Source: Acidobacteriaceae bacterium
Lineage (GTDB): Bacteria > Acidobacteriota > Terriglobia > Terriglobales > Acidobacteriaceae
NCBI GenBank assembly: GCA_003164635.1
Contig: PLTV01000097.1
Span: 13,359 to 48,803 of the forward strand
Length of the DNA: 35,445 nt
Direction of reading: 5' to 3'
Translations under genes and position numbers: made by a program
Shown: positions 11,583 to 33,363 of the stretch, piece by piece
How positions within the stretch are numbered: the stretch's first letter is position 1
Layout: the number at the start of each line of letters is the position of its first letter
Notes under the pieces: model-generated
Told to the model about the DNA's origin: nothing
The model's input: the letters and a program-made list of their open reading frames with translations, nothing else
The model's database searches: none

Positions 11583-11638
11583 GGTGGTTGAACCTCTGGG
11601 GGAAACTTCATCGTGATGCGGGAAGTATACAGGGACGA

Positions 11639-12238
11639 TCAAACTGGATCGCCGTGATTAACTGTTTCGTTGCGGCCGCCAATAGAGCGTAATCCCCTGC
11701 CCCGCAGGCGGATTCGCACAGCAACGGCGAGAAAGCAGACGGCCGCGAGAATCTCGAGAAAAACCTTGCCTCCATCGAGCAGGTCGGGATGACCGTCCTT
11801 CAGGTCGGGATCCGTGAGGATGCTGTGGATGAAGAGCAGCACTGCAGCGGGAAAGACGAGGTAGTGCAGGCTTCGCCAGATCGGGCGGCCAATACGCGTT
11901 CGCAGGAGCGACGTGACAAAGACCAGCAGAAGAAGGTATAGCGCGGCCGCACCAGCAAGATTGATGAAGGGTTGTAGCGGCGATTGGATGGGCAGGAGGA
12001 TGTCGAAGAGGCGGAAGTGCGGCTTGTCGAGAAAGAGGAGCACGATAGGGTGGCTCACGGTGAGAACGATGGTGCACCACGCCGTCCAGCGGTGGAAGGC
12101 GAAGATATCGAGTTTGCGATGAGGCCACTGGCGCACTGGGCTGTAGCGCATCGAGATGAGGGTGCCGAGCAGAAGGTTGAGGCCCGCTGCTGCTGCCGCC
12201 CCGAGGCCGAGATATGAGCAAAGATCCAACAAGGTCAT
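11639..12238 (-). CDS. Ferric-reductase-like transmembrane haem protein
   Basis: A 199-aa integral membrane protein with about six hydrophobic segments and two pairs of likely haem ligands. His49 and His63 lie in FHRWTAWCTIVLTVSH (14 residues apart), and His125 and His138 lie in LHYLVFPAAVLLFIH (13 apart). This is the bis-His pattern of the ferric reductase-like transmembrane domain family, which includes MsrQ. No flavin or NADPH domain is fused, so it would be the membrane electron-transfer subunit only; an MsrP-like partner is not in the window. I chose ATG 12238, with a GGAG about 11 bases upstream; an in-frame ATG at 12295 adds 19 residues without a clear ribosome binding site. It lies directly upstream of propeller paralog 1 and may be cotranscribed with it. 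Confidence 0.72.
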   Translation of the reverse strand: MTLLDLCSYLGLGAAAAAGLNLLLGTLISMRYSPVRQWPHRKLDIFAFHRWTAWCTIVLTVSHPIVLLFLDKPHFRLFDILLPIQSPLQPFINLAGAAALYLLLLVFVTSLLRTRIGRPIWRSLHYLVFPAAVLLFIHSILTDPDLKDGHPDLLDGGKVFLEILAAVCFLAVAVRIRLRGRGLRSIGGRNETVNHGDPV

Positions 12239-12445
12239 TCGAGGCGGCGCTCCAGAATGCGTCCGATGCTGAGGTGCCAGTATAAATTCCGCCATAGCGC
12301 GGCAAGTTTTTCAAGGAAACGGACTCGCTTCCGCTACACTAGCAATCCACTGGTAAAGATGATGGGAAACCTCATCCCAGCCGATCGCCGGTTCTGCATC
12401 CGGTCCAATCTTGTTCCGCAACTTCAAACGCCAGGAGCCATCCTC
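12239..12445. promoter_or_regulatory. Divergent promoter region between the haem protein and propeller paralog 2
   Basis: About 200 bases between two divergent genes. A possible sigma-70-type -10 (TACACT, 12335-12340) faces the plus strand but lacks a good -35. CAGGAG at 12432-12437 is the ribosome binding site that decides the GTG start at 12446. No operator-like repeat stands out. Confidence 0.3.
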
Positions 12446-15400: not shown

Positions 15401-15649
15401 AAGCTTCACGCCGGCGAGGACGCACTCAACTTTCCAATCAAACTAAATAACAAGATTGCGTCGGTTGGCGGCGTGGTGGAGTCGACCGACATTGCGCCGA
15501 CAGCACAATCGGTCGCGGTCTTCGATGAGTTGTCCGCGAAGCTGCAGGTGGAACTGGATCACCTGCACCAGATTGAGACAGCCGGCATCGAGAACTTCAA
15601 CAAGTTGGTTCGGGATCAGAACATCCCGGCGGTCAATCTCAAGGAGTAG
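12446..15649 (+). CDS. Large secreted Asp-box (BNR/VPS10-like) propeller protein, paralog 2
   Basis: A 1067-aa exported member of the same family as its neighbours, with 11 Asp-boxes by eye (KDGGKTW, TDGGDTW, EDAGATW, TDDGKNW and others) forming probable tandem propellers. It opens with IGPFRGGRVDAVTG, closest in that motif to paralog 1 rather than to paralogs 3 and 4. GAQQDNSTV marks the conserved middle segment. A short Gly run (near residue 780) precedes the C-terminal beta domain (SRFVWDLRYE) and a Lys/Glu-rich helical tail. The frame opens at 12257, but GTG 12446 has a good CAGGAG eight bases upstream and gives a signal peptide ending PWPGFAQQ. It is first in a (+) operon, 50 bases ahead of paralog 3. 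Glycan or peptide binding or cleavage is possible, but no catalytic residues can be assigned with confidence. Confidence 0.8.
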   Translation: MQLRLRFNFDLLNSFVRRAAFTCALMVLPWPGFAQQPPAKAVGPTGPADGFSALKLRQIGPFRGGRVDAVTGVPGQPLVYYFGGTGGGVFKTTNGGHTWEPITDGKINFGSIGSIAVAASDPNVVYVGTGESAIRGNASHGDGVYKSMDAGKTWMHVGLEDTQQIGQIRIDPTNPDLVYVAALGHMAGPNPERGVFRSKDGGKTWQKVLFKSENAGAIDLAMDPTNSRVLYAAIWQVVRKPWTFESGGPDGGVWKSTDGGDTWKELTHNPGMPKGVLGRIGVTVSPANPDRVWALIEAQDGGVFRSEDAGATWSKLNGDAGIKQRAWYYSQIFADPKNADVVYAVNTSFFRSTDGGKKFDPIRNQHGDNHDLWIAPEDQNRFIESSDGGAQVTFDGGKSWSTEDNQPTGQFYRVAVDNDFPYHIYGAQQDNSTVAIASRSNNGSITERDWHDVGGGESGWIAPDPTDSNFVYAGSYDGLLTRLDTKTGAMRDVNAWPDNPMGYGVEAMKYRFQWSFPLLFSPHDPKRLYAGSQVLLQTTDEGQHWTAMSPDLTRNDKTKQGPSGGPITKDNTAVEYYDTIFTVDESPVKAGVIWVGSDDGLIHVTTDDGKNWQDVTPKDAPQWIRMNCIAASPFDAGTAYVAATMYLSDDFHPFLWKTTDYGKTWKKIVNGIPENDFTRAIRPDPNEKGLLFAGTESHLYISYDDGDKWLPFQLNLPAVPVTDLAFQKRDDALVIATQGRGFYVLDDMPLVRALDPAKFKHTDALALFAPKTAMRIAGGGGGGGRPDPTAGQNPPDGAVLYYLLKEEPKSELKLRILDASGKLVREISSKPPTQSNGEEDPEDERPKEGLAPSKEGMSRFVWDLRYEKATGFPGLLMWDGSLDGPLAIPGKYKVELVVDGKTESQDFEVVKDPRAPTTPQQFEEQLALGLKIRDRVTEANSSVVRIRKAKEQLKPYLTSGDERVKTSAKDLTDQLTAIEENIYQTKLHAGEDALNFPIKLNNKIASVGGVVESTDIAPTAQSVAVFDELSAKLQVELDHLHQIETAGIENFNKLVRDQNIPAVNLKE

Positions 15650-15699
15650 ACAACGGACCGTCACGGTGGCCACCACACATGCGCAGAAGAAGGAGCAAT

Positions 15700-18600
15700 A
15701 TGGAGAGCTTTCGCCGAGGATTGCTTGTATCCATCGCGGTTTTAGGCATTGTGCAACTCAGCAGGGCCCAGGTGGATCCCAAGCTGTTTTCCGACATGCG
15801 CTGGCGTGAGATCGGGCCCATGCGCGCCGGGCGCACACGCGCGCTTGCCGGTGTGCCCAGCGAACCGGCTACGTTTTACATGGGTGCCGTGAACGGGGGC
15901 GTGTGGAAAACGACCGACGCGGGCGCGACATGGCACAGTACCTGGGGCGATGAACCGAGCGGGTCGATTGGGGCGATGGCCGTGGCGTTGAGCGATCCCA
16001 ACGTGATTTACGTGGCGAGCGGCGAAGGACTGCAACGGCCCGATCTCTCAACTGGCGACGGCGTTTACAAATCCACCGATGCGGGGAAGACGTGGACTCA
16101 CCTAGAGGGTTTGCGCGACGGGCAGCAGATTGGCGAGCTTGCCATCGACCCGCATGATGCGAATCGTGCCTTTGTCGCGGTCGAGGGCCATCCGTATGGG
16201 CCGAACCAGGAGCGCGGGTTGTATCGAACAATCGATGGTGGAAAGACGTTCGAGCGCGTTCTTTTTGTGAACGATCGAACAGGCGCGTCGGACGTGCAGA
16301 TCGATCCGCAGAACGCAAAGATCGTTTTTGCCGGCATGTGGCAGCGCCAGGAAGCGCCTTGGGAAAACGGATCATTTATTGGAGCCGAAGGCGGTCTATA
16401 CCGCTCGACGGACGGCGGCGATCACTGGACGAAGCTTACGGGGAACGGGCTTCCGGACGACATTCTGCAAGTAAATCTGACGATTTCGCCGACCAATTCG
16501 AAGCGCATCTATGGAGCCATTGCGCCACTACACGGAGCGGTGGGGATTTACCGTTCGGACGACGGTGGCGATCACTGGGTTAACGCCCCGGATAACGACA
16601 CACGACCGGAAGAACGCATCGGAGGCGGAGACTGTCCCGTTCCGATGGTCGATCCCAAAGACCCGGACACGTTGTATGTGGCGAGCATCGTCACGATGAA
16701 GTCGACCGACGCGGGCAAGACCTGGACTTCACTGCGCGGTTCGCCGGGCGGCGACGACTACCAGAATGTCTTCGTGAATCCCAACAACACGAAGATCATT
16801 GCGCTGGCCAGCGATCAGGGCGTGATCATCTCGCAGAATGGCGGCGAGACCTGGGTGGAGTGGTACAACCAGCCGACAGCGCAGATGTACCATGCGACGG
16901 CCGACAACGCGTTTCCCTATCGGGTGTGCGGAGGCCAGCAGGATTCGGGGTCGGCGTGCGTGCCGAGCCGCAGCGATGATGGGCGCATTACGTTTCACGA
17001 TTGGCACCCTGTTGGAATCGAAGAGTATGGTTACGCAGCGCCGGACCCGCTCGATCCGGATATTGTCTACGGCGGCAAGGTGACGCGCTATGACCGCCGC
17101 ACCGGCCAGATTCAAAGTGTTGAGCCCAAGCCGCTGCGCAGCTATCGCGTGCTGCGCACGGAGCCGCTCCAGTTTTCACCTGTCGATCCGCACAAGCTCT
17201 ACTTTGCGACGAATACGCTGTGGCTCACTTCAGACGGCGGCAAGAATTGGAAGGAAGTCTCGCCAGATTTGACGCGGCCAACGTGGGATTTACCGTCTTC
17301 AGTCGAGGCCTACAAGGATTCGCCGATGGCCAAGGCGACGCAGCGCGGCGTCATTTACGCGCTGGGACTTTCGCCGCTTGACGGCAACCGCCTTTGGGCC
17401 GGCACGGATGACGGCCTCATCTGGACCACCGCGGATGGTGGCGCGCACTGGAACAACGTGACGCCGCCGGAACTGAAGCCCTTCTGGAAAGTCTTCAACA
17501 TGGATGCCGGCCACTTTGATGTGCAGACCGCCTACGCGGCGGTCAACACACTGCGGCTCGACGACATGCGCCCGCATCTCTTCCGCACGCATGACGGCGG
17601 CAAGTCGTGGACTGAGATCGACAACGGCATCCCCGCGGGAGCAGCCACGAGCGCGATCCGCGAAGACCCGAAGCGTAAGGGACTGCTTTATGCGGGCTCG
17701 GAGACGCAGGCCTACGTCTCCTTCGACGATGGCGACCATTGGCAGTCGCTGCGTTTGAATATGCCGGCAAGCTCGGTGCGCGATCTGGAAGTGAAAGACG
17801 ACGACCTGATCGCAGCCACGCACGGCCGCGGGTTCCTGATCCTCGATGACGTGACACCACTGCGCCAGCTTGCTGCCGAAACGGCAGGGGTGGCCGCACA
17901 TCTCTACACTCCACAAACCGCACTGCGCATTCGCAACGACATGAATCCGCCGACACCGTGGCCGGCCGATATGGCTACAGGTGAGAACCCGCCCGATGGC
18001 GCCATCATCGACTATTTTCTCGGCACGGGGATCAGCGGCAAGGTTTCGCTGGAGATTGCCGATGACGCGGGCCACACGATTGCCCGCTTCAACAGCGACG
18101 ATCCCGTACCACCGCTGGATCCGCGCTATTCCGTACCCGAGGTGTGGGCGCGGCCGCCACGCGCGCTCTCGGCGGCGCCGGGGCATCATCGCTTCCTGTG
18201 GGACCTGCAATATCCGCAGGTGCCGGGCATGTCTACAGGTCCCGACGCGGATCTAGCCACGCCGCACAATACGCCATCAGTCTCAACTGCGCCGTGGGTA
18301 CTCCCGGGCAATTACACGGTGCGTCTAATTGCGAATGACAAAACGCTTACGCAGCCACTCAAAGTAGCCATGGATCCGCGTGTAAAGACGTCGCAAGCCG
18401 ATCTTGAGAGCCAGTTCAAACTGGCCAAAAGCATCTACGACGAAGTCCTGGAGACGACCGCTGCGCTGCACGAGATCAGCGTGCTGCGCGAGCAGTTGAA
18501 AGATCGTGCAAGTCAGCCGCCCGTTGCGCACGCCGAACCCTCGATCGAATCGAAGCTCGATGCGATTGCCGGTTCCGATCGGGGTGGCCGAGGCGGCTTT

Positions 18601-18894
18601 ATGCGTGGGCCCGCAGGACCGCCGACGCTGGGAACCGTGCGCATGGTTCTGGCGCGGCTGGAGCACTCGATAGAGAGTGCAGACGCGGCGCCCACCGCAG
18701 CGCAGGACGAAGCTTACACGACCACTGCGAAGCCGCTCCCTGGCCTTTTGGAGCAATGGAAGCAGCTCAAGCAGACCGATTTGAAGTCGCTAAACGACAC
18801 GCTCAGACGGGAACATCTGGCTGTGCTCACGCTCGATACACGCGAATTCGATCGCAACGCAGAAGATGAGCTGGAGATGGGCGACGAGGAGTAA
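15700..18894 (+). CDS. Large secreted Asp-box (BNR/VPS10-like) propeller protein, paralog 3
   Basis: A 1064-aa exported propeller protein. ATG 15700 is preceded by AAGGAG (15690-15695) and starts a clear signal peptide (ESFRRGLLVSIAVLGIVQLSRA, cut before QVDPKLF); the frame also has ATG 15679, which would only add Arg-rich residues. The mature protein begins IGPMRAGRTRALAG, a variant shared with paralog 4. I count 11 Asp-box or near Asp-box motifs (TDAGATW, TDGGDHW, HDGGKSW). GGQQDSGSA replaces the GAQQD seen in the others. The C-terminal beta domain (HHRFLWDLQYP) and a roughly 140-residue helical tail match paralogs 1 and 2. The gene lies between paralogs 2 and 4 in one operon, with a 109-base gap downstream. 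Confidence 0.8.
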   Translation: MESFRRGLLVSIAVLGIVQLSRAQVDPKLFSDMRWREIGPMRAGRTRALAGVPSEPATFYMGAVNGGVWKTTDAGATWHSTWGDEPSGSIGAMAVALSDPNVIYVASGEGLQRPDLSTGDGVYKSTDAGKTWTHLEGLRDGQQIGELAIDPHDANRAFVAVEGHPYGPNQERGLYRTIDGGKTFERVLFVNDRTGASDVQIDPQNAKIVFAGMWQRQEAPWENGSFIGAEGGLYRSTDGGDHWTKLTGNGLPDDILQVNLTISPTNSKRIYGAIAPLHGAVGIYRSDDGGDHWVNAPDNDTRPEERIGGGDCPVPMVDPKDPDTLYVASIVTMKSTDAGKTWTSLRGSPGGDDYQNVFVNPNNTKIIALASDQGVIISQNGGETWVEWYNQPTAQMYHATADNAFPYRVCGGQQDSGSACVPSRSDDGRITFHDWHPVGIEEYGYAAPDPLDPDIVYGGKVTRYDRRTGQIQSVEPKPLRSYRVLRTEPLQFSPVDPHKLYFATNTLWLTSDGGKNWKEVSPDLTRPTWDLPSSVEAYKDSPMAKATQRGVIYALGLSPLDGNRLWAGTDDGLIWTTADGGAHWNNVTPPELKPFWKVFNMDAGHFDVQTAYAAVNTLRLDDMRPHLFRTHDGGKSWTEIDNGIPAGAATSAIREDPKRKGLLYAGSETQAYVSFDDGDHWQSLRLNMPASSVRDLEVKDDDLIAATHGRGFLILDDVTPLRQLAAETAGVAAHLYTPQTALRIRNDMNPPTPWPADMATGENPPDGAIIDYFLGTGISGKVSLEIADDAGHTIARFNSDDPVPPLDPRYSVPEVWARPPRALSAAPGHHRFLWDLQYPQVPGMSTGPDADLATPHNTPSVSTAPWVLPGNYTVRLIANDKTLTQPLKVAMDPRVKTSQADLESQFKLAKSIYDEVLETTAALHEISVLREQLKDRASQPPVAHAEPSIESKLDAIAGSDRGGRGGFMRGPAGPPTLGTVRMVLARLEHSIESADAAPTAAQDEAYTTTAKPLPGLLEQWKQLKQTDLKSLNDTLRREHLAVLTLDTREFDRNAEDELEMGDEE

Positions 18895-19003
18895 GTGATC
18901 CGAAGGAGCAAGAAGATCATCGTGGGTCGGGTACAATTCGGTACAAGAGCAACCCGCTCGACCTGACCCAAGCACGAAAAGCTGAAAATCATGGGAGCCT
19001 TCC

Positions 19004-21865
19004 ATGGCCATTCGCGGCCGCTTCTCGGCCTGGTTGTTCGTCTTCATTGCATTGCGGGTTTCTGCCCAACAATATTCGCCTGACTTGCTCGGCGGCCTGC
19101 AGTGGCGCGACGTGGGCCCGATGCGCGCCGGGCGCAGTTATGCCGTGGCTGGAAACTCGGCCCAACCCGATACGTTTTATACCGGCTCGGTGGGAGGCGG
19201 CGTATGGAAGACCGAAAACGCGGGGCGCACATGGTTTTCCATTGGCGATGATGCGACGACGGGGATTCCGATTGGCTCGATTGGCGCCATAGCAGTCGCC
19301 CCCTCGGATCCGAACATCGTGTACGTGGGGACGGGCGAGCCGGACATCCGCAGCCAACATTCGTATGGCATTGGCCTCTTCAAATCGACCGACGCAGGCA
19401 AAACGTGGCATTCAATCGGGCTGGCCGAGACGCGCCAGATCGGCAAGATCGTTGTCGATTCCGCCGATCCCAATCGCGTCTACGTAGCGGCACTCGGCCA
19501 CGTCTACAAGGCAAACCCCGACCGCGGGGTTTATCGCTCAACCGACGGTGGCGCGCACTGGAAGAGAATTCTCTGGAACGCGAAAGACCCGGACGACGTG
19601 GGCGCGATCGACCTTGCGATCGACCCGCAGCATCCGCACACCCTCTATGCGTCGCTGTGGGCGACGCGCCGTCCGCCGTGGGCGGTGTACGCACCACCCA
19701 ATATGCCCGGTGGCGGCCTCTATAAGTCGACGGACGGTGGAGACACGTGGCATCCACTCACCGGCGGCCTCCCGACCGACGATTATGTTGGCAAGATCGG
19801 GATCGCAGTTGCACCAAGCAATACCAACCGGCTCTATGCAGTCGTGGATGATACAGGCAGAGCGGTCGCGCGTTCGTTACGCGGTGGCGGCGATGAGGCC
19901 AATGCACCCAAACCTTCGGGCGGAATTTATCGTTCTGACGATGGCGGCACTACGTGGACGCTGGTGAACAGCGAGCAGCGGCTCTGGGGCCGGGGATGGT
20001 ATTTTGGGCAGATCGCGGTCGACCCGGCCAATCCCGATCGCGCGTACGATATCAATACCGCGACGTACATGACGCTGGACGCCGGCAAGACGTGGGTTCC
20101 TGTGAAGGGCGCGCCGGGCGGCGACGACTATCACCAACTGTGGATCGATCCGCGCGACGGCAACCGCATGGCGCTCTCGAGCGACCAGGGGACGGTGATC
20201 TCCGTGGATGGCGCAAAGTCCTGGAGCACGTGGTACAACCAGCCCACCGCCGAGATCTATCACCTGGCGGCAAGCAAAGGCTATCCCTACCGGCTCTATG
20301 GTGCGCAGCAGGACTCGGGCGCGGTGAGCGTAGCCACGTGGTCGCGCATGGGCGTGCTGAGTTTTCGCGATTGGGAGCCGATCTGCGAAGCCGGTGAAAG
20401 CAGCACAGTCGTGCCCGATCCGGACAATGCGGCCCTGCTCTACGGCAACGGGGATCAGCGTTGCAACATGGCACTGAATGTTTCCGCGCCAGCCGGTGGT
20501 GAACTGCCCGCGCCCGATCCGAAGGATCCCAACCGGCGCACGTGGACGCTGCCACAGGTTTTCTCGCTTGCCGACGAAGCGCTCTACTACGCAAATCAGT
20601 TCGTCTTCCGCTCGCGGGATCGCGGCAAGACGTGGTTGAAGATCAGTCCCGATCTCACACGGCTGAATCCTCCGGTGCCTGCGACGCTCGATGCGGTAAC
20701 GGCCAAAGATATTGATGAGCCGATGACCGATCGCTTTGGCGTGGTGTACACGATCGGCCCTTCGCCGCTCGATGCCAAAACTGTCTGGGTGGGCACGGAC
20801 GATGGGCTGATCCACGTGACGCACGACGATGGCGCAACCTGGAACGATGTGACACCACCGGCTATGACGGCATGGAGCAAGGTCTCGCAGATCGAAGCCG
20901 GGCATTTCGACTCGGGAACCGCGTACGCTTCCGTCGATCGGCATCGCCTCGCCGATGACCATCCGTACATCTATCGCACGCACGATGGCGGAAAGAGCTG
21001 GCAGAATGTCGTTGCCGGAATTCCGGAAGGCGCGTTCGTGAACTCCGTGAAAGAAGACCCGCGGCAGAAGGGGCTGCTCTATGCGGCGACCGAGTTACGC
21101 GTCTATGTTTCGTTCGACGACGGCGACCATTGGCAGCCCTTGCAGCTCAACATGCCCGTTACATCGGTGCGCGACCTGGTTGTGCACGATGATGATCTTG
21201 CCATCGCTACGCACGGCCGAGGATTTTGGGTTCTCGACCAGATGGCTCCGCTGCGGCAACTGGCGGCGCACGGAAACGAGATTACTTCGGCGAGGGTTTT
21301 TCTTTTTGTTCCTGGGGAAACCTGGACAATGCAACAAGGCGGCCAGAACGGCACGCCACTGCCGCATGAAGAGCCGCAAGAGGAGAATCCTCCGCAGGGT
21401 GTGGTTGCGTACTACTGGCTCAAGTCGGTTCCGCAAGGCCCGGTAAAGATTGACCTCGTCGATGACGCGGGCAAGGTGGACGCCTGCCTGGCCAGCGATA
21501 CGCCCGTGAAGCCGGTGGATACAGAAGCGATCAACGTGCAGGCTGTTTGGATGGAGCCCACGCCGCCACCGCCGGCGGCGACTGGAATGCATCGCGCTGT
21601 GCTGAGCATGGTTGCGCAGCGCGGGTTCGGCCGCCGTCCGGCGACTCCAGCACCGGACGCCTGCCATCCTGCAGGAGCCGCGCCGGTGCAGACCGAGGCT
21701 GCGCCGACGCGCCCCGGGCGAGGATCGCAAGGCCTGCAGCCGGGAAACTACACAATTCGGCTTACCGTGGATGGCCAGACGTTTACGCAACCTGTCACGA
21801 TCAAGCCTGACCCGCGACATCTGCCCAATGCCGCAGGAGCACCGGATGATGATGATGATGAGTAA
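19004..21865 (+). CDS. Large secreted Asp-box (BNR/VPS10-like) propeller protein, paralog 4, short C-terminus
   Basis: A 953-aa exported propeller protein with signal peptide AIRGRFSAWLFVFIALRVSAQ and a GGGAG about seven bases before ATG 19004. It begins VGPMRAGRSYAVAG, like paralog 3, and keeps 11 Asp-box-like motifs and GAQQDSGAV. Its C-terminal part differs: the beta-domain motif is degenerate (MHRAVLSMVAQ), a Pro/Ala-rich insert follows, and the protein stops after KPDPRHLP with an acidic DDDDDE tail. The helical tail of about 100-150 residues present in paralogs 1-3 is absent. The tail is encoded by a GAT repeat that overlaps the start codons of the downstream receptor gene by 20 bases, so the two are likely translationally coupled. 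Confidence 0.8.
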   Translation: MAIRGRFSAWLFVFIALRVSAQQYSPDLLGGLQWRDVGPMRAGRSYAVAGNSAQPDTFYTGSVGGGVWKTENAGRTWFSIGDDATTGIPIGSIGAIAVAPSDPNIVYVGTGEPDIRSQHSYGIGLFKSTDAGKTWHSIGLAETRQIGKIVVDSADPNRVYVAALGHVYKANPDRGVYRSTDGGAHWKRILWNAKDPDDVGAIDLAIDPQHPHTLYASLWATRRPPWAVYAPPNMPGGGLYKSTDGGDTWHPLTGGLPTDDYVGKIGIAVAPSNTNRLYAVVDDTGRAVARSLRGGGDEANAPKPSGGIYRSDDGGTTWTLVNSEQRLWGRGWYFGQIAVDPANPDRAYDINTATYMTLDAGKTWVPVKGAPGGDDYHQLWIDPRDGNRMALSSDQGTVISVDGAKSWSTWYNQPTAEIYHLAASKGYPYRLYGAQQDSGAVSVATWSRMGVLSFRDWEPICEAGESSTVVPDPDNAALLYGNGDQRCNMALNVSAPAGGELPAPDPKDPNRRTWTLPQVFSLADEALYYANQFVFRSRDRGKTWLKISPDLTRLNPPVPATLDAVTAKDIDEPMTDRFGVVYTIGPSPLDAKTVWVGTDDGLIHVTHDDGATWNDVTPPAMTAWSKVSQIEAGHFDSGTAYASVDRHRLADDHPYIYRTHDGGKSWQNVVAGIPEGAFVNSVKEDPRQKGLLYAATELRVYVSFDDGDHWQPLQLNMPVTSVRDLVVHDDDLAIATHGRGFWVLDQMAPLRQLAAHGNEITSARVFLFVPGETWTMQQGGQNGTPLPHEEPQEENPPQGVVAYYWLKSVPQGPVKIDLVDDAGKVDACLASDTPVKPVDTEAINVQAVWMEPTPPPPAATGMHRAVLSMVAQRGFGRRPATPAPDACHPAGAAPVQTEAAPTRPGRGSQGLQPGNYTIRLTVDGQTFTQPVTIKPDPRHLPNAAGAPDDDDDE
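21845..21859 (+). repeat. GAT x5 microsatellite spanning a gene overlap
   Basis: Five consecutive GAT units. In the propeller frame they encode Asp-Asp-Asp-Asp-Asp before the final Glu and TAA at 21863-21865; in the receptor frame the same bases are five successive ATG start codons (21846, 21849, 21852, 21855, 21858). AGGAG at 21835-21839 precedes them. Gain or loss of a whole unit would keep both frames intact but change the acidic tail and the number and spacing of start codons. Confidence 0.85.
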
Positions 21866-25070: not shown

Positions 25071-25949
25071 CTACGGTCGAACGAAAGTGAAGACCTGGTC
25101 GGCGGAGTTGACTCCAAAGACGCCGGCTCCGGATCCGGCGGCAATGTTCTTGAGAGAGCCAGTGACCTGGACAAATTCTTCGCGGCTGGGGTCGAAGCGG
25201 AAGATTTCGTTGGAAGTGTTGATAGCCCAGACGCCATCCCCGCCGGCTGCGACTTCCCCGACAGGCGCCGCTACAAGGTTGAACAAGCCGGTCTTCGAAT
25301 CGTAGCGAAAGACTTGACTGGAGCCGTTGATCCCCCACACGTCATTCACTCCAACCGAGATCGTCCCCAGGGTGCCCGAGACTTGTTGCCAGGACTCCGC
25401 GGCAAGGTTGAAGTGAAAGATTTGGCCGGCACTATTCAGCCCCCACACATCGCCGCCGCCGGTTGCGACGTGAGTCAGGAAGCCGCTGACTTGGACGAAC
25501 GCGTTCTCGCAGTAGTTGAACCTGAAGATTTCATCCCCGGAGTTGAGGCCCCAAACTTCATAGGGATGACAATCGTCCTGGTTGCCTATGCCGACGGCGA
25601 TTTGCGTGAGGATGCCCGGTATCTGAACGAACTCCTTTTTGCTGTAGTTGAACCTGTAAACGAAGTTTGCGTTGAATCCCCAGACCTCGTCATTCTGTGA
25701 GAGAGTGCCGCCGCCCACAGCTACGTTGGTGAGCGAGACCTTGGCTATTTTGTCAAATGCCTTCGAACTGGCCGAATATCGCCAGACATTGTCATCGGCA
25801 TCGATGCCAAAGACCTCGTTCCGGCCCGCGGAAACGCTGGTGAGGGAGCCTTTAACCTGCTTAAAATGCTGTGCTGACGCCGGGACGACGAGCGAAGTCC
25901 CGCAGACGAGAACCAGAAGTACGTTGGAACAAGCGGTTTTGCGCGACAT
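25071..25949 (-). CDS. Secreted tectonin-type beta-propeller protein (lectin-like)
   Basis: A 292-aa exported protein made almost entirely of seven repeats of about 36-44 residues, each built like FVQVxGxLxxIAVGxxDVWGxNxxxxIFRF. This is the tectonin/tachylectin pattern, and seven units would suit a closed propeller. Known relatives (for example fungal tectonin 2 and animal tectonins) bind glycans; a surface- or foe-binding lectin role is inferred. The start is ATG 25949 with AAGGAG six bases upstream, beginning the signal peptide SRKTACSNVLLVLVCGTSL..PASA; the frame runs on to 26018 but that part is the untranslated leader. The leader and signal peptide are nearly identical in DNA to those of the protease-like gene at 29856. 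Repeats 2 and 3 carry short insertions; repeat 3 contains Cys in its insert. Confidence 0.8.
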   Translation of the reverse strand: MSRKTACSNVLLVLVCGTSLVVPASAQHFKQVKGSLTSVSAGRNEVFGIDADDNVWRYSASSKAFDKIAKVSLTNVAVGGGTLSQNDEVWGFNANFVYRFNYSKKEFVQIPGILTQIAVGIGNQDDCHPYEVWGLNSGDEIFRFNYCENAFVQVSGFLTHVATGGGDVWGLNSAGQIFHFNLAAESWQQVSGTLGTISVGVNDVWGINGSSQVFRYDSKTGLFNLVAAPVGEVAAGGDGVWAINTSNEIFRFDPSREEFVQVTGSLKNIAAGSGAGVFGVNSADQVFTFVRP

Positions 25950-25994
25950 AAAAATCTCCTTGGTGAATTTCAAATACGTGGGAATAGCGGGTGC
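25865..25994 (-). repeat. Shared leader/signal-peptide module, copy A
   Basis: Read on the minus strand this starts GCACCCGCTATTCCC, continues through ACCAAGGAGAT and the ATG, and ends GTCAGCACAGCATT inside the signal peptide cleavage region. The same order and mostly the same bases occur at 29810-29941 on the plus strand. Similarity stops just after the signal peptide, where the two mature proteins differ completely. Confidence 0.85.
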
Positions 25995-26144
25995 GGAAGG
26001 AAAGAGCGTGTCGCTCATGGCTTCTTAGCCCAAAGGTGGCGGCCGGTGTGTAACGAATCGTGACTGGACTCGCGACGTTTCATGGCAGGTACGCCGCAAT
26101 CGAGCCTCTACTCAACAAAGCGCAAACCTGTGTCAGGAACTATC

Positions 26145-26285
26145 ATGAGCAAGAAAAAAAATCGAAAGATATTTGCAGTCCCCGAGCTGAAGCAACCGCC
26201 AGCACATGGAATCCAGTCATTCGTCAGGAACGACATTGGGGCCGCTGAAACGTTCGCGGTGCCGACCCTTCGGGCGCGATGTTGA
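26145..26285 (+). CDS. Possible 46-aa basic peptide, unrecognised
   Basis: A short open frame starting at ATG 26145, with AGGA about eight bases upstream, encodes a Lys-rich start (MSKKKNRKIF), then AVPELKQPPAHGIQSFVRND and a tail IGAAETFAVPTLRARC ending in a single Cys before TGA. It has no signal peptide or membrane segment. It is divergent from the tectonin gene (195 bases apart) and points toward the kinase remnant. I do not recognise a family. It could be a small regulatory protein, a precursor peptide with a leader and a short core, or chance. No modifying enzyme is nearby, which weakens the precursor idea. Confidence 0.3.
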   Translation: MSKKKNRKIFAVPELKQPPAHGIQSFVRNDIGAAETFAVPTLRARC

Positions 26286-26340: not shown

Positions 26341-26453
26341 GAGCGCCGAGCCAGCGACAGGGCCTATTCGTGGAACTCCTGGCGACGCACAGGGGCAACT
26401 TCTGGTGCTGACTGCAATGGGTCATCCAGGAGTTTCCAGCGTTCAGTTTCCAC
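26341..26453 (-). pseudogene. Decayed 5' fragment of a Ser/Thr kinase gene
   Basis: On the minus strand, GTG 26453 opens a frame reading METERWKLLDDPLQSAPEVA and continues PVRRQEFHE before a TAG at 26366-26364. This is plainly homologous to the first 29 residues of the kinase at 28777 (METERWKLVDDLLQSALELA..PERREEF). DNA similarity carries on past the stop to about 26341 (TCGGCGCTC), with small gaps. It lies 35 bases beyond the stop of the intact kinase and in the same orientation, so it looks like the residue of a tandem duplicate that was lost. Confidence 0.75.
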
Positions 26454-26488
26454 GATTCAGGCGTGCGGTGCCTCTGCGTGAGGATCAG

Positions 26489-28777
26489 CTAATTCCGCGG
26501 TTGCGAAGAAGCTCGCTTTTTGGCGCGGGCTACCAAGGCTGCAAGACGAGGATCGTCATGAAGAGGAGCAAACAGGGGATCGTTCTCCAGGCCCACGGCG
26601 ATTCGCGGGGCCAAATTGTCGATCACTCCATCGAGGAGCGCCAGCGCCTCGTCAGCTTTCCCTTTGCGGACAAGGACGGAAGCAAGGTCGTATTTGGTCG
26701 CCGAAATCTCGCCCTGGTCAGGGTCGAGGACGCGTCGTTCGATCACCATTAGCTCATTGAGTGTCTTGATTGCAGCGTCGTCCTGGCCCGTATCCCTTTG
26801 CAACTCGGCAAAGTTAAGCATGGCATTGATTGTTCCGATGTTCTCGGGGCCCAAAACGCGCAGATGCCTGTCCAGCGACTCTCGTTGCATGACCATAGCT
26901 TCCTCCATTTGCCCGCTGTCGTGCAGCATACCTGCAAGATTGTCCATGGTCGTTAGGGTGCCGTAAGCATCGGGCCCCAGTAAGCGCTTCTGCTTTTCCA
27001 ATACCTCGCGATTGATTTTTACGGCTTCCACACAATTGCCTTCCTGGCAGAGCGTGAAGGCGAGTTCGCCCATGGTGCCCAGGGTGTCCGGATGGTCTGG
27101 GCCCATCACGCTGCGCTGAATGTCGAGCACCTTCCTCGCCAGCGTCTCGGCCTCAGTGAGTCGGCCTTGTTGCACGAGTGCCCACGCCAGGTCGTGCATG
27201 GCTTGCAGCGTGCCGCGATCTCTCTGCGCGTCAAACGACCCGCCAATTTGAATGCTCCGATCAAAGAGGATCTGTGCGCGCGAGAACAGGCCCATATTCA
27301 AGTAAGCGCGGCCCATAACCCGCATCATTTGCGCCTTAAGGTCCGGATCGTTCGATAAGCTCGTATCTATATCCTTCGCTGCTTTGTCGAGGACCGCGCG
27401 TGCCGTCACTGTATCGCCGACCCTTTCATTGGGGTCCGAAACCCTGAACACCCCCGTCATGAAGTCTGCGATGCGGTTAGCGCGATCACGTTCGCGGGTA
27501 ATCCGCCGCAGCTCAACAGCCTGTGTCAGGGCAAAGCCCGCAAGCAGCGCCACCAGCGCCGCCGCCACGGCCACACCTACCCGGTGCCGGCGGACGTATT
27601 TGCGCATACGATACGGCAGCGTGTCCGGCCGGGCGGCGATCGGCTCATGCTTCAGATAGCGATGGAGATCGTCGGCCAGAGCAGTCACCGAGGCGTAGCG
27701 TTCCTTCGGTTTCTTCTTGAGAGTCTTGGCAATGATTGTGTCGAGGTCTCCGCGAAGCAGGTGTTGGAGCTTGTCTGAGGTGGCATGGCGCCTCTCTGCC
27801 AAACCTTGGTCCTTCGCTGACGCCACAGCCTGCGATGCAAGACGTGCCTCGGCATCGGTGATCGATTTCACCAGATCCGCGGGAGAATGCAAACCCGTAC
27901 TGGTGGGATGCTCGCCTGTCAGGAGTACGAAGAGCAGGACGCCCAGCAAATAGACGTCCGTTGCGGTAGTGATGGCAGCACCGGTCAGCTGCTCAGGCGC
28001 CGCATACTGTGGGGTCAGCACCCTGCTCGCCTCCGCGGTAAGCTGGGCGGGGACCGCGTCTTCAGCAAGCACCTTGGCAATGCCGAAGTCCAGCAGCTTG
28101 ACCTGTCCATCGTTTCTGATGAATACATTGCTCGGCTTGATGTCGCGATGAACAATCAAGTTGCTGTGTGCATGGGCGACGGCGCTCAGCACATCGAGGA
28201 ACAGATGGATGCGCGCATCGATGCCAAGTTTGTGCCGGTCGCAGTATTCGTCAATGGCCTGCCCTTCCACATATTCCAGAACAAGAAAAGGCTCACTGGT
28301 GGAGGTGACACCCGCATCGATCAATTCCGCAATCTGCGGGTGAGAGAGTTTGCCAAGGATCGCGCCTTCGCGTTTGAATCGCTCGGCGCCGGCCGCGTCG
28401 AGCACGGCAAGGTGGATAAACTTGATTGCAACCTTGCGCTCGAAGCGCCCATCGCAGCGTTCGGCCAGCCATACGCTTCCCATGCCGCCGCTGCCGATCA
28501 TCTTCAGAATGCGATAGTGGGAGACGACCTGGCCAACAAGGGGTTGCGCGATCGACGGAGCCACGTCAGCCGCCATCGCGCGGGCAGCAATCTCCACCGC
28601 CGGCGTTTCGAGAAAAGCTCCGGCCCTTCGGTGCGAGGTGAGCAGCGAATTGATCTCGCCGACGAGCGCCGAATCGCCGCCGCAGGCTTGCGCGAGGAAC
28701 TCCTCGCGACGCTCCGGGGCAAGCTCCAGCGCCGACTGCAATAAATCATCCACGAGTTTCCAGCGTTCAGTCTCCAT
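26489..28777 (-). CDS. Membrane Ser/Thr protein kinase with C-terminal TPR domain
   Basis: A 762-aa Hanks-type kinase. An N-terminal helical region of about 85 residues (METERWKLVDDLL) is typical of kinases paired with ECF sigma factors. The kinase domain spans about residues 88-370: Gly-rich loop IGSGGMGSVW (94-103), VAIK with Lys119, catalytic HRDIKPSN (His210-Asp212), DFG (Asp230) and APEQ; all key residues are intact. A basic stretch and one transmembrane helix (about 399-420) follow, then a region of some 330 residues with TPR-like repeats and tetratricopeptide-type periodicity. If the kinase is cytoplasmic, the TPR part faces the periplasm. The start at ATG 28777 has a poor ribosome binding site. 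The sigma gene ends 47 bases upstream on the same strand, so the pair probably forms one transcript and one pathway. Confidence 0.9.
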   Translation of the reverse strand: METERWKLVDDLLQSALELAPERREEFLAQACGGDSALVGEINSLLTSHRRAGAFLETPAVEIAARAMAADVAPSIAQPLVGQVVSHYRILKMIGSGGMGSVWLAERCDGRFERKVAIKFIHLAVLDAAGAERFKREGAILGKLSHPQIAELIDAGVTSTSEPFLVLEYVEGQAIDEYCDRHKLGIDARIHLFLDVLSAVAHAHSNLIVHRDIKPSNVFIRNDGQVKLLDFGIAKVLAEDAVPAQLTAEASRVLTPQYAAPEQLTGAAITTATDVYLLGVLLFVLLTGEHPTSTGLHSPADLVKSITDAEARLASQAVASAKDQGLAERRHATSDKLQHLLRGDLDTIIAKTLKKKPKERYASVTALADDLHRYLKHEPIAARPDTLPYRMRKYVRRHRVGVAVAAALVALLAGFALTQAVELRRITRERDRANRIADFMTGVFRVSDPNERVGDTVTARAVLDKAAKDIDTSLSNDPDLKAQMMRVMGRAYLNMGLFSRAQILFDRSIQIGGSFDAQRDRGTLQAMHDLAWALVQQGRLTEAETLARKVLDIQRSVMGPDHPDTLGTMGELAFTLCQEGNCVEAVKINREVLEKQKRLLGPDAYGTLTTMDNLAGMLHDSGQMEEAMVMQRESLDRHLRVLGPENIGTINAMLNFAELQRDTGQDDAAIKTLNELMVIERRVLDPDQGEISATKYDLASVLVRKGKADEALALLDGVIDNLAPRIAVGLENDPLFAPLHDDPRLAALVARAKKRASSQPRN

Positions 28778-28824
28778 GATTTAGAAGCGCAGTTCGGAGT
28801 CAGGAAATTCGCATTGCCGCCCCA

Positions 28825-29412
28825 TCACGTCTTGGCATGCTCCGCAGACATGCCCCCCATTTCGCGGTATAGCCAGGCGCGTGCGGTAGTCCAATCGCGC
28901 ATGACTGTAATAGAGGAGATATTCAACACTTCGGCGGTCTCTTCCACGCTCAAGCCTCCGAAGAAACGCAGTTCGACAACTCGTGCTTTGCGCGAATCGA
29001 AGCGCGCGAGTGCGAGCATCGCATCATCGAGAATGACGAGATCTGCATCGCGCTCCGGCCCGAATACGTTGGTCTCTTCTAAAGAAATTTGCTGCATACC
29101 AGCCCCACGTTTCAAGTTTCGCCGCCGGGCGTGATCAACCAATATGCGCCGCATAAGTTGTGCCGAAACGGCGAAGAAGTGAGCGCGGTCCTTGAAACGC
29201 ATGCGTTTGAAGTCCACAAGCCGCAGGTAGGCCTCGTTTACCAGGGCGGTGGTCTGCAGCGTGATTTCTGCCCGCTCGCCTCTCAGATAGTGGCGGGCAA
29301 CGCGGCGCAATTCGTCGTAGACGATCGGCGTTAGCTTATCCAGGGCGAACTGGTCCCCATTACTCCACTCCTGGAGCAGTGTGCTGACATCGTTTCCCGA
29401 CGACGGATTCAC
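28825..29412 (-). CDS. ECF-type RNA polymerase sigma factor
   Basis: A 195-aa sigma-70 family protein of the ECF-like group found with Ser/Thr kinases in Acidobacteria and Planctomycetes. Region 2 is seen as PIVYDELRRVARHYLRGER and TTALVNEAYLRLVDF, with FFAVSAQLMRRILVDHARRR completing the core-binding and -10 recognition part. Region 4 contains the helix-turn-helix LSVEETAEVLNISSITVMRDW. GTG 29412 is chosen because GAAAGGA (29420-29426) lies seven bases upstream; the frame also opens at TTG 29460, inside the promoter. It likely redirects transcription under control of the downstream kinase; targets are unknown, though the two flanking secreted-protein genes are candidates. Confidence 0.88.
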   Translation of the reverse strand: MNPSSGNDVSTLLQEWSNGDQFALDKLTPIVYDELRRVARHYLRGERAEITLQTTALVNEAYLRLVDFKRMRFKDRAHFFAVSAQLMRRILVDHARRRNLKRGAGMQQISLEETNVFGPERDADLVILDDAMLALARFDSRKARVVELRFFGGLSVEETAEVLNISSITVMRDWTTARAWLYREMGGMSAEHAKT

Positions 29413-29459
29413 AGCGAAATCCTTTCGACAATTGGCCACAATACTGAGGAATGGGCGCA

Positions 29460-29487
29460 ATTATAGCCCGCTGGTCTGCGCCCGCAA
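29460..29487 (-). promoter_or_regulatory. Likely promoter of the sigma-kinase pair
   Basis: On the minus strand a perfect TATAAT (29465-29460) lies 16 bases after TTGCGG (29487-29482), a fair housekeeping-type -35. It is about 47 bases upstream of the GTG at 29412. Confidence 0.5.
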
Positions 29488-29809
29488 ATAACTATCCCAA
29501 AACTTTCCTTGCCAGATGATAGGTCCTGACCCCGGCTTGCGCCTTGTTAAGTAGAGGCTTTGAAAGCGGCGAATCGCCGAGCAAGCCGGAGCCTCCAAAA
29601 ACTAACTGGAAAAATGCGGTGCTTTCCGATCCTTTTCCCGCAGGTCGATCGCAGTTTCACATCAGCAAATTCAAGAAGACAGGAGGTTCTCCGGCGAGCC
29701 GCCCAAAATGTCCAACTGTCTGCGGCTTCGATGCCAGGAACTATCACAATGCACGGAACTTAGACACGGCCCACCGATTCTGCCCATAGAAGGGTCTGAG
29801 TTTGCTGTA
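29488..29809. other. Intergenic region upstream of the protease-like gene
   Basis: About 320 bases between the sigma factor promoter and copy B of the leader module. A short palindrome GGCGAATCGCC lies near 29567-29577. Overlapping short open frames have no family features. Nothing else recognised. Confidence 0.3.
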
Positions 29810-29941
29810 GCACCCGCTATTCCCCCGAAACGAAAAACCAACCAAGGAGATTCCAATGTCACGCAAAACCGCTTATTGCAGCGCTCTTCTGCCACTCGTC
29901 TGCGGGGCCTTACTCGTCGTCCCGGCCTCAGCACAGCATTC
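29810..29941 (+). repeat. Shared leader/signal-peptide module, copy B
   Basis: Starts GCACCCGCTATTCCC, has ACCAAGGAGAT before ATG 29856, and ends with CTCAGCACAGCATT at the signal cleavage region. It is the inverted counterpart of 25865-25994. The conserved block upstream of the ribosome binding site may include the promoter of both genes. Confidence 0.85.
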
Positions 29942-31070
29942 CGCCAACCCGGCAAACTCGCAAAATGCCAAGTCCACCGCTTTTAGGGGTATCGGCAGTC
30001 CTGTCGTCTCAGACCCAACCAAAGCCCAGGCGATTCTCGACTACTGGTCTCCAGACCGGCTGTCGAACGCCCGCCCTTTGCCTATTCCAATTCTGGACAA
30101 GGAAGCCATCGATGCCGCCGCTGCCAAGGTTCCTGTAAATGGGCCCAGCGGAGGAAGCCCCGGCGGACGCCCCTCCATTCAGGCAGAACCCACCGAAGAG
30201 ACCCAGACGGAAACCTTCCCGCTGAATCAGGGAGATGCAGATGAGTCCGCCCCCAGTGACCCACCGGGATTCAATTATGTGTATCCTTACAACAACTTCC
30301 GAACGGGCGTGAACAATACTTACCCCTACTCAACCGTAGGAAAGCTGTTCTTCATAGTCCCTTCGGGTGCAACACTGCCTCCCGGCGAGTACGTTTGCAC
30401 CGCTTCGGTCGCAATGAATAGCTATACGCTTGTAACTTCTCGCCAGTGCATGTACGACGTCAACACGGGTAAATGGTACAGCAGCTTTGTGTTCTATCCC
30501 GGTTGGAACAGCGGAAAGAACAGTAAGCTGGGAGGCGCATGGACAGTGCGCTATGCGTGGACCTGGCCCACCGGCTATGCAAACTATTACTACGACATCG
30601 GCTTCCTGGCCCTGAACGACCACAACGGACAAGGCTGCGATAACAGCACCGGATCCAAATCAATCGGCCATTACACAGGATGGCTAGGCAACTGGTACGG
30701 CGAAGACTATTCGCAAGTGCAGTGGAGCCTCTTCGGCTACCCGACAACGAATCCCTTCAACGGGAACTACCTCTACCAGGACAACGCCGCAACTGCGGCA
30801 CTTAACCCATTCGGCTTCTCTGGGACAGTTGGAGTTGGCAACCCACAAGCCGGGGGCATTACGGGCGGTCCCTGGGTCCTGGGATTTGACCCGAACAACG
30901 CATCCAGCAGCGTCCCGGTGGACAACATCAACGCCAATAAGAACCTGATCAACTCGGTCATAAGCTATAAGAGTGCATCGTACCCGCTTATGGTTGTCGG
31001 CCCAGAATTTGAGTCGAATAACTTCAGCAACCTCTACGGCGGCTACCTCGCCAATAACGGTTGCAATTAG
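29856..31070 (+). CDS. Secreted trypsin-fold protein with degenerate catalytic triad (pseudoprotease)
   Basis: A 404-aa exported protein. Signal peptide (cut near residue 27), then a Pro/Ser/Glu-rich pro-like region to about residue 140, then a V8/trypsin-like domain: YPYSTVGKLFF opens the fold and YVCTASVAMNSYTLVTSRQC matches the segment that normally ends TAAHC or TAGHC. The catalytic His position is Gln197 (CAG 30444-30446). The Asp position is kept (YDIGFLAL, Asp247). The Ser position in the GxSGGP motif is Thr336 (GITGGPW, ACG 30861-30863). Two of three triad residues are therefore changed while the fold and Cys pair (181/198) remain. It may bind rather than cut, or be an unusual Thr enzyme (unlikely without His). 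AAGGAG at 29844-29849 fixes the start. A strong hairpin follows the stop. Confidence 0.75.
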   Translation: MSRKTAYCSALLPLVCGALLVVPASAQHSANPANSQNAKSTAFRGIGSPVVSDPTKAQAILDYWSPDRLSNARPLPIPILDKEAIDAAAAKVPVNGPSGGSPGGRPSIQAEPTEETQTETFPLNQGDADESAPSDPPGFNYVYPYNNFRTGVNNTYPYSTVGKLFFIVPSGATLPPGEYVCTASVAMNSYTLVTSRQCMYDVNTGKWYSSFVFYPGWNSGKNSKLGGAWTVRYAWTWPTGYANYYYDIGFLALNDHNGQGCDNSTGSKSIGHYTGWLGNWYGEDYSQVQWSLFGYPTTNPFNGNYLYQDNAATAALNPFGFSGTVGVGNPQAGGITGGPWVLGFDPNNASSSVPVDNINANKNLINSVISYKSASYPLMVVGPEFESNNFSNLYGGYLANNGCN

Positions 31071-31091
31071 CAGGGCACGCCTAGAACATGG

Positions 31092-31127
31092 ACCGGCCCC
31101 GGGGACGCAACCGTCTTCGGGGCCGGT
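31092..31127 (+). terminator. Long stable hairpin after the pseudoprotease gene
   Basis: ACCGGCCCCGGGGACG pairs with CGTCTTCGGGGCCGGT around a four-base CAAC loop: 14 Watson-Crick pairs plus two G-T pairs in the middle. It begins 21 bases after the stop codon. No T run follows, so it may stop transcription with help or protect the 3' end of the mRNA. Confidence 0.55.
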
Positions 31128-31264
31128 GCATTGAGCTTCTGGAAGCCCGGGCCACGGGCGCTGCGCAGCGTTGTCACCCGACGACGCTCGAAGCTCCGAA
31201 GCGCGGCTAACAACCATTGCGCCCGCAGCGCGGAAGGTCGTTTTGCAGGAGATGGAGCGAGTGC

Positions 31265-32587
31265 CTACGGATGAATGATGCGGACGGCGAGAACGGTGAA
31301 AGAGACAGGCGCCCCGGTCACGGCCTTTGAGCGAATGAGGACCTCGAAGTAAGGTGACGGGGCCTTTGCCTCGCGTTCGACAGCCTGCTGGAGTTGAGCC
31401 CGATGCTGATTATCGGCCAGGATCATGGCGAGGGCTTCGGTTCCGGCCTGACGCAGGCCTTGCACGATCATGACGTTGCCGTGTCCCATCTGGCCGGGTA
31501 AGACTGCCAACGTTGCGTAGTCTTCTCCGGTGGACCCGGTGCTAACGAGGCCCTGATAGTCAGTGAGTTCGCCGGGCTGAGGGTTCCGGTTGCGGAAGTG
31601 CATGCCTCCGCCAGCGGTTTCTTCAACCGGCTGAAAGTTGAGCTTGTCAGTGAAGAGCGCTACCCAGGGATTGGAGGTGGGACCGCCAAGGAAGATGAAG
31701 TTGCCATATTCCAAATCGCGCCGGTCGAGGTCGTGGGCGGCCGTAAGCGTGAACTGCTGGTTCATGGGTCCGGCAAGCTTCATCAGGCTCGACAAAGCGG
31801 TGAGGTCGGCAAATGAGGTCAGTTGGGCGACGGAGATGTAGCTAAGGAGGCTGGTGAAATTCGGTGGAATTTTCGCCGGAATCATTTTTTGGCGGTAGTC
31901 GGGTTGCAGAAATTCGTCGAGGGTGACGGGTTTGTTTTGCAGCCGGCGCAGCATAAGACTGCTGTCGGAAATAACGATGCGGGTGCGGCGGTCGGGCTGA
32001 ATCAATTTATCGAGCGGCCAGGGTGGAGTTTGAGAGCGAGATTCATTGGCGGCGCGGAACCAGCCTACGGCGCAAAGGACGGCTGCGGCCGATGCTGCGA
32101 TCAGGAGTGCCCACAGCAGCCAGCGGTTTTTGGGGGGAGCAGGCGTGGGCTGCGGAACGGAAGGAAACGGGATCAACTGCTGGCGATCTTCGGGCTCGAT
32201 GTCTTCGAATTCCAGCACGTAGGATCCGCGGCGGATTTCTATACGCTGCGGTTCATGCCGGCCTTCGACGGCGAAATATTCGTGGAGCCTAAGCCGCAAC
32301 TGCCTTACGTGGACGCGAACGGCGCTGTCTTCGGTGGTGCTGTAATCGAGGGGTTTGCCGAAGACACCAATGCCAATCTGGCGCTCGGTGAGACTGTCGG
32401 CCCGGCCACGAATAGCAAACTCGGCAAGGTAAGTAAGAAGCGAAGGCAGCTTGGAAGATTTTTGAAATGGGGCTGTGGCAAGGATGCGCTCGATGAGAAG
32501 CCAACGCGGGTCGGAGTGGATGTCAGTAACGGACTTTTCACTCGCGACACTTACCTTTTGATTGGGCTCCACGGGCGCCATTTCCAT
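31265..32587 (-). CDS. Membrane-anchored winged-helix regulator (CadC/OmpR-like N-terminus)
   Basis: A 440-aa protein. The N-terminal ~120 residues contain RWLLIERILATAPFQKSSKL, ERQIGIGVFGKPLDYSTTED and VRVHVRQLRLRLHEYF..IEIRRGSYVLEFE, a winged-helix-like domain I know from many acidobacterial membrane regulators. A Pro-rich linker and one transmembrane helix (RWLLWALLIAASAAAVLCAVGWF) follow. The C-terminal ~250 residues would be periplasmic and contain PWVALFTDKLNFQPVEE; I do not recognise this domain. The frame is open to 32857. I chose ATG 32587 because the DNA just upstream is AT-rich and promoter-like, but ATG 32668 has a better ribosome binding site (AGGCGG) and would add 27 residues. 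A one-component sensor-regulator is likely; the signal and targets are unknown. Confidence 0.7.
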   Translation of the reverse strand: MEMAPVEPNQKVSVASEKSVTDIHSDPRWLLIERILATAPFQKSSKLPSLLTYLAEFAIRGRADSLTERQIGIGVFGKPLDYSTTEDSAVRVHVRQLRLRLHEYFAVEGRHEPQRIEIRRGSYVLEFEDIEPEDRQQLIPFPSVPQPTPAPPKNRWLLWALLIAASAAAVLCAVGWFRAANESRSQTPPWPLDKLIQPDRRTRIVISDSSLMLRRLQNKPVTLDEFLQPDYRQKMIPAKIPPNFTSLLSYISVAQLTSFADLTALSSLMKLAGPMNQQFTLTAAHDLDRRDLEYGNFIFLGGPTSNPWVALFTDKLNFQPVEETAGGGMHFRNRNPQPGELTDYQGLVSTGSTGEDYATLAVLPGQMGHGNVMIVQGLRQAGTEALAMILADNQHRAQLQQAVEREAKAPSPYFEVLIRSKAVTGAPVSFTVLAVRIIHP

Positions 32588-33363
32588 ATCTGCTTGAATA
32601 TAGTGGAAATCTTGACCTATTGACTCCAAAATAAAGTAACCGCTTCGCTTACCCTCGGTAACCACCATGGCCGATGACCGCCTTGCCAACGCGGTTGTGG
32701 AGACATTTTCCCGATGGAAATGACGGCACGATTTGGCGGTGAAAGCTTTTGATTTCACCTTGTTTTCAATGGCTAAGCTCTGGTGGTAGACATTTAGTGG
32801 CATCAGACTCGGAGTGAGGTCGAGGCAGCCCCAGAGCCAGCCGAACAGGTTTGTCACACACTCATATTTCGACTGGCAATAGGGCTTAGTTCTATGGAAA
32901 ACTCAGGTTTCAAATTAGACGACAGTCGTCATTCCGTGGGAAAACCGCGGGGTGTTTTGGTAGTGATGCCAAAGCGCCACTTTCTCTCGCTGGAAGAAGT
33001 TTTGTTCAGACTGGAAAACAAGACGCTTCCAACGAAAGTTGCCTTGGTTCTCGAGTGGTCGCTGGCTGGGATGGCGATTCGGCGATCGTGCACGGCGCCT
33101 GTTCAGCTTCGCGGCCCGTCGAGTTAGTTTGGACACGAGCTGTGCAGAGCCGGAATGGACGAAAACTGGGGGGAGTGCCTGCACGGGTCTCGGAATCGGG
33201 ACCCCGGGCACCCAAATTCTGTAGCGACCTTTCTTTTACCAATTGGGTTCTCGATTGGAGCCCAAACCCGCCGCGATATAGGGCTTGAGGATTGCGGGAG
33301 ACGTTTTGCCGTCCCGCTTTCCTTCCGCGGATTAGCCGGCTCCAACGCGAGGTCGAGAATCGA
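32588..33363. other. Long intergenic region, no gene recognised
   Basis: About 780 bases between the amidase stop and the chosen regulator start. The part next to the regulator (32588-32660) is AT-rich with TATATT on the minus strand about 15 bases before the ATG, a possible -10. The rest has short overlapping open frames on both strands, none with a ribosome binding site, signal peptide or motif I could support. Confidence 0.35.

Follow-up and report, generated by a model that had tools for sequence, protein, structure and literature searches.

Inactive members of the serine protease families are known from prokaryotes: the accessible text of PMC2605481 gives 42 putatively inactive serine protease homologues (SPHs) among the 966 serine proteases of 91 prokaryotic genomes. 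MamO, as presented in the available part of PMC4794232, is a pseudoprotease which promotes the proteolytic activity of an active relative and binds metal; according to the same text, activity was lost after duplication three times in the MamE family. For ECF43 sigma factors, the available part of PMC13147305 names as hallmarks a QTTA consensus around the phosphorylated threonine and an adjacent Hanks-type kinase. Few bacterial pseudoproteases have a known origin.

Here we describe a candidate secreted pseudoprotease from an Acidobacteriaceae bacterium. The analysed stretch of DNA, 35,445 nucleotides of contig PLTV01000097.1, will be referred to as the window.

RESULTS

An intact gene with two replaced catalytic residues

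The gene, identified by translation and homology to S1 proteases, extends from 29856 to 31070 on the plus strand and encodes a 404-residue protein (P0001). The frame runs uninterrupted from ATG to TAG and is preceded by an AAGGAG ribosome binding site (29844–29849), as the original prediction had stated. It lies within a 56-kb contig of a 4.8 Mb genome, which consists of 398 contigs and has 70% completeness. The protein starts with a signal peptide, followed by a region (YW...R...A.P.P.P) common to other members, and ends with a protease-like domain. No family match was obtained in Pfam or NCBIfam at E values up to 1. Since the two closest intact relatives likewise have no Pfam family at 0.01, the missing match is not a sign of decay. 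Directly 3′ of the gene there is an imperfect palindrome (31088–31131), a possible terminator. A gene on the minus strand (31265–32857) converges on it; its 530-residue product has no Pfam family, and inspection by eye suggests a part resembling DNA-binding proteins and a single membrane stretch.

In a phmmer comparison with solved serine proteases P0001 matched 3cp7 (AL20, E 1.5e-13) and 3wy8 (E 7.2e-11), and a profile built from seven sequences matched both of them again (E 6.6e-39 and 2.9e-35). Alignment to these proteases and to the homologues placed Gln197 (CAG, 30444–30446, plus strand), Asp247 (GAC, 30594–30596, plus strand) and Thr336 (ACG, 30861–30863, plus strand) on the catalytic His, Asp and Ser, respectively. 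The corresponding motifs are TSRQC from residue 194, YDIGFLAL, which contains Asp247, and GITGGPW from residue 334. The residues and numbers given in the original prediction were thus correct. P0001 has the catalytic domain of AL20-like S1 peptidases by homology, and does not have the His-Asp-Ser triad of the active enzymes. With catalytic residues absent and the gene intact it answers the description of a serine protease homologue. The only histidines are at positions 28, 256 and 272, and by homology none of them can substitute for the missing one.

All three catalytic residues were intact in 17/17 homologues, a set which was collected from whole-genome searches and plasmid matches and includes the paralogue from the same genome, P0001 itself being excluded. 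At the 27 columns invariant in the first six aligned homologues P0001 differs three times, and two of the three are the catalytic His and Ser. Among the sampled relatives the catalytic loss is therefore private to P0001. The Gln/Thr version was found in no other genome searched, and the family alignment proposed with the original prediction yielded no subgroup in which Gln and Thr are conserved. Intact relatives had also been named as a possible counter-argument, in case they marked the changes as recent private mutations; the relatives are indeed intact and the changes private, and it is the recency that did not find the same support.

Homologues, own genome included, are present in 5/397 genomes of the order, in eight of a phylum sample of 396 and in one of 80 of the genus. 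Scans of genome-contig and viral-contig collections gave no confirmed P0001-related locus. The intact paralogue in the same genome (contig C71) is 44% identical to P0001 and carries TARHC and GGTSGGP. CHAT is a caspase-like domain, and the paralogue gene shares its strand with a TPR-CHAT gene that immediately precedes it (L012:210-4139, contig C71 of G000), so that the two may belong together. Another homologue with an intact triad (L009:157-1923) continues with about 300 residues containing three HVFFRDGNGNGILHIS-like repeats unrecognised by Pfam, and homologues of Streptomyces have ricin-type lectin domains in this place; a protease joined to a carbohydrate-binding-like part therefore seems to recur. 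A diverged homologue with intact residues (L055:702-1739), annotated as hypothetical, is encoded on a conjugative plasmid of Xylella taiwanensis.

The leader resembles that of a neighbouring tectonin gene

About 4 kb from the P0001 gene, in inverted orientation, lies a gene for a tectonin, a beta-propeller protein of sugar-binding type (25071–25949, minus strand; PF19193 repeats, E 1e-46). We place its start at the Met of MSRKTACS; the listed open reading frame begins at 26018. DNA alignment showed that 29810–29940, i.e. the segment from −46 to codon 28 of the P0001 gene, has an inverted copy in the tectonin leader (25865–25994, minus strand), with 80% identity over 131 bp (E 3e-28). The shared segment comprises the 5′ untranslated region with AAGGAG (29810–29855, plus strand) and the signal peptide of codons 1–28 (29856–29939, plus strand), which is presumably cleaved at ASA|QH by the AXA rule. 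Similarity extended to tectonin leaders of genome G758 (79% over 94 bp), genome G692 (73% over 126 bp) and contig C213 of the same genome (68% over 104 bp), all three tectonins having the same MSRKTA-type signal peptide.

Identity between P0001 and the window tectonin, anchored at the ATG, was 24, 23 and 24 of 30 in the bins of the signal peptide and fell to 11/30 in the next bin, whereas the tectonins among themselves still had 21–25/30 per bin beyond the signal peptide. The leader was absent from the two proteases closest to P0001 (8–13/30 in the signal-peptide bins). These values indicate a leader of tectonin origin, fused to the protease body where the signal peptide ends. As judged from the sequence, the P0001 gene is a chimera of a tectonin-type leader and a protease body, and the tectonin gene of the window is the likely donor. 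Neither this leader nor the gene setting described below figured in the original prediction. Between the two genes the coding part of the leader has a dS of 0.19–0.38 (28 codons, three methods).

DNA comparison also revealed a 44-bp element upstream of both genes, at 29516–29559 (plus strand) before P0001 and at 26103–26146 (minus strand) before the tectonin gene, the copies being 86% identical. In both places it precedes the leader and has the same orientation relative to it, with a gap to the leader 142 bp longer before P0001. With up to three mismatches allowed, a pattern made from both copies matched the genome at these two sites and at no others, and the reversed control matched nowhere, which does not support a scattered genomic repeat. 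The element was not found near tectonins of other genomes, nor was a sigma-70-like promoter found.

Sigma factor and kinase genes between the two leaders

Between the two leaders, on the minus strand, are genes for an ECF sigma factor (28825–29460; TIGR02999) and for a Hanks-type Ser/Thr kinase with one hydrophobic, membrane-type stretch and TPRs (26489–28777), assigned by domain searches and motifs; the P0001 gene is head-to-head with this pair. The sigma factor reads LQTTALV, and has both the QTTA of region 2.2 and the adjacent Hanks kinase that characterise ECF43. DNA comparison identified 92 bp derived from the start of the kinase gene (26369–26460, minus strand; 82% identical to 28693–28784), a decayed copy directly upstream of the tectonin gene, from which we infer that the locus was duplicated and rearranged before. 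Elsewhere in the window, at 8178–21865, there are four large Sortilin/Vps10 BNR-repeat proteins, three consecutive on the plus strand and one on the minus strand.

In genome G417 (L051:7542-14925) a sigma factor, a kinase and four tectonins are encoded on one strand in an operon-like arrangement, and in G503 (L052:3056-10606) a sigma factor, a kinase, a kelch-type protein frame and two tectonins also share one strand. The sigma factors of these loci are only 31–34% identical to that of the window. No sigma-kinase pair was detected at E 1e-8 in the stretches analysed around the tectonins of G432, G692, G758 and C213 (L021, L048, L049 and L050), some of which lie on short contigs. These genomes may contain many such pairs, so we regard the link of the pair to tectonins as suggestive.

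Tectonin homologues occur in 7/397 genomes of the order, and the only genome shared with the protease homologues is the one studied here; a conserved tectonin–protease pair is therefore unsupported by the order sample. Neither gene is typical of the genus: both were absent from the 79 other genus genomes searched, and they thus look accessory. Among the open-licence literature matches listed, nothing dealt with tectonin together with a sigma factor or Acidobacteri.

Signs of maintenance

P0001 retains Cys181 and Cys198 (the pair beside the His position), Cys261, Cys403, Gly334 and Ser370, with equivalents of Gly193 and Ser214 present. It forms a clade with two intact sisters (support 100/99, inner order open), and its branch (0.72) is similar in length to that of the own-genome paralogue (0.65) and exceeds that of the G641 protein (0.44). 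At the three codon positions P0001 differs from the G641 gene by 0.353, 0.319 and 0.630, and the intact pair differ from each other by 0.299, 0.315 and 0.589; the third-position excess of P0001 resembles that of the intact pair. Among these three genes synonymous divergence is close to saturation or past it, therefore dN/dS of the protein body is uninformative. The frame, the structural cysteines and the evolutionary rate look maintained at this level of analysis.

Changes private to P0001 were not concentrated around the active site: they affected 11/28 positions lying at most five residues from those of His, Asp, Ser and Ser370, and 42/134 elsewhere (p 0.51). Remodelled active-site surroundings are unsupported by this count, and we see no sign of a remodelled cleft. 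Single-sequence AlphaFold2 of residues 141–404 alone had a pLDDT of 32.8.

DISCUSSION

We consider it somewhat probable that P0001 is a secreted pseudoprotease that functions by binding, that it combines the duplicated body of an AL20-like S1 protease with the 5′ block of the nearby tectonin gene, and that the two genes are expressed together. A pseudoprotease explains the data best, since the frame, the structural cysteines and the rate look maintained, and with two of three catalytic residues lost P0001 most likely binds rather than cuts. In favour of the pseudoprotease named in the original prediction, two catalytic residues are missing from a secreted homologue that is intact in other respects, and a recent loss that has not yet led to decay still competes with it.

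Such a recent inactivation, leaving a functionless duplicate in which stops have not yet accumulated, is unlikely, with some real chance of being right. Gln and Thr are private to P0001, the genome is a single one of about 70% completeness, His to Gln takes one base change, and the changes are not enriched near the active site, as a new role might have made them. The 404 codons, however, have stayed open since the capture of the leader, whose dS is given above. In simulations of unconstrained drift, with about half of this dS on the branch, stop-free runs made up from 2.5% (d 0.10) to 0.2% (d 0.20), figures to be read with the caveat that P0001 could have remained a working protease during the greater part of the elapsed time. 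Moreover, the Ser codons of the sisters are AGC and AGT, from which ACG is at least two changes away. Threonine can serve as nucleophile in other folds, and P0001 keeps Asp247 and the glycine two residues before the nucleophile position, which would suit a protease using Thr336 with another base. We find this very hard to accept: the general base is lost, and the remaining histidines are in the signal peptide (position 28) or in stretches following the Asp strand (256 and 272), unaligned to the active site.

That the genome is fragmented and incomplete raises the question of an assembly or sequencing artefact, but the gene is interior to its contig with the frame open throughout, two separate codons are changed together with neighbouring A-to-S and T-to-I replacements, and leader copies with 80% identity are no collapsed repeat; we regard an artefact as exceedingly improbable. 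The likeness of leaders and elements could also have come from a chance rearrangement without shared regulation. Local duplication does move leader blocks here, as the kinase fragment at 26369–26460 illustrates, and the extra 142 bp before P0001 fits such an origin. Against it, element and leader were kept before both genes in order and orientation, and the element is nowhere else in the genome. A chance origin is doubtful in our view, while deserving considerable weight.

The pseudoprotease that we favour may have arisen as follows. An AL20-like S1 protease would have been duplicated, the intact paralogue remaining on C71, and the body of one copy would have been joined to the tectonin 5′ block, consisting of the upstream element, the ribosome binding region and the signal peptide. 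By analogy with ECF43, the kinase would sense something outside the cell and phosphorylate the sigma factor, which could then switch on tectonin and pseudoprotease together. To judge from their signal peptides both proteins would be exported. The pseudoprotease would fold and keep its peptide-binding cleft and, for want of the missing residues, could not cleave. Its ligands may be peptides or proteins, and it could serve as a partner or decoy for the substrates of the intact protease, or else accompany the tectonin. In a more elaborate version, to which we give little credence, leader capture would have placed the dead protease under the sigma-kinase pair; the tectonin propeller would bind surface glycans, the dead protease would hold peptides of rivals or predators, and the intact paralogue would act on them. 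If true, this would be a case in which a bacterium recruited a pseudoenzyme by a swap of the whole block from promoter to signal peptide.

One genome displays the steps: an intact paralogue, a likely leader donor 4 kb away, a junction where the signal peptide ends, and two replaced catalytic residues. This makes two questions testable, namely whether a new expression and export context accompanies the loss of catalysis, and whether pairs of ECF sigma factor and kinase control secreted tectonins.

An AL20-like pseudoprotease with a borrowed leader appears new to us. Searches of the open-licence literature found nothing on this combination or on Acidobacteri with pseudoprotease, and on signal-peptide and leader swaps returned mainly unrelated work. 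The kind as such is already known, since inactive homologues of serine proteases form an established class. P0001 is like them in missing catalytic residues, and unlike them in having a leader of the type that an unrelated secreted protein carries. The AL20-like proteases 3cp7 and 3wy8 resemble it over the whole catalytic domain, including the GKLFF start, GYP..PF.G and GG..GGPW, and glutamyl endopeptidase 1p3c is more distant. P0001 differs from these enzymes in having Gln and Thr for the catalytic His and Ser, and in two extra cysteines, which among the six aligned homologues are common to its two closest relatives; Cys403 also aligns in L009.

In terminal reassortment of type III effectors a 5′ block for regulation and export is joined to a different coding body. 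P0001 likewise appears to have such a block on a new body; unlike the effectors it carries a tectonin leader whose signal peptide is of Sec type, and evidence of type III secretion is absent. The sigma-kinase pair shares QTTA and an adjacent kinase with TPRs with EcfK-PknS and EcfP-PknT, as far as the available text of PMC13147305 describes them. In contrast to those systems, the neighbours here are a tectonin and a candidate pseudoprotease.

The nearest working parallel is MamO. In the available part of PMC4794232 MamO and the inactive MamE copies of magnetotactic bacteria are, like P0001, duplicates of a trypsin-fold protease with a degenerate triad and an active copy in the same genome. The same text assigns MamO to the HtrA/Trypsin-2 branch, with a non-glycine residue 193 and a metal-binding di-histidine (PMC4794232). 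P0001 differs in its lack of such a family assignment, in keeping Gly334 at the 193-equivalent position, and in having three histidines only; a metal role is not indicated.
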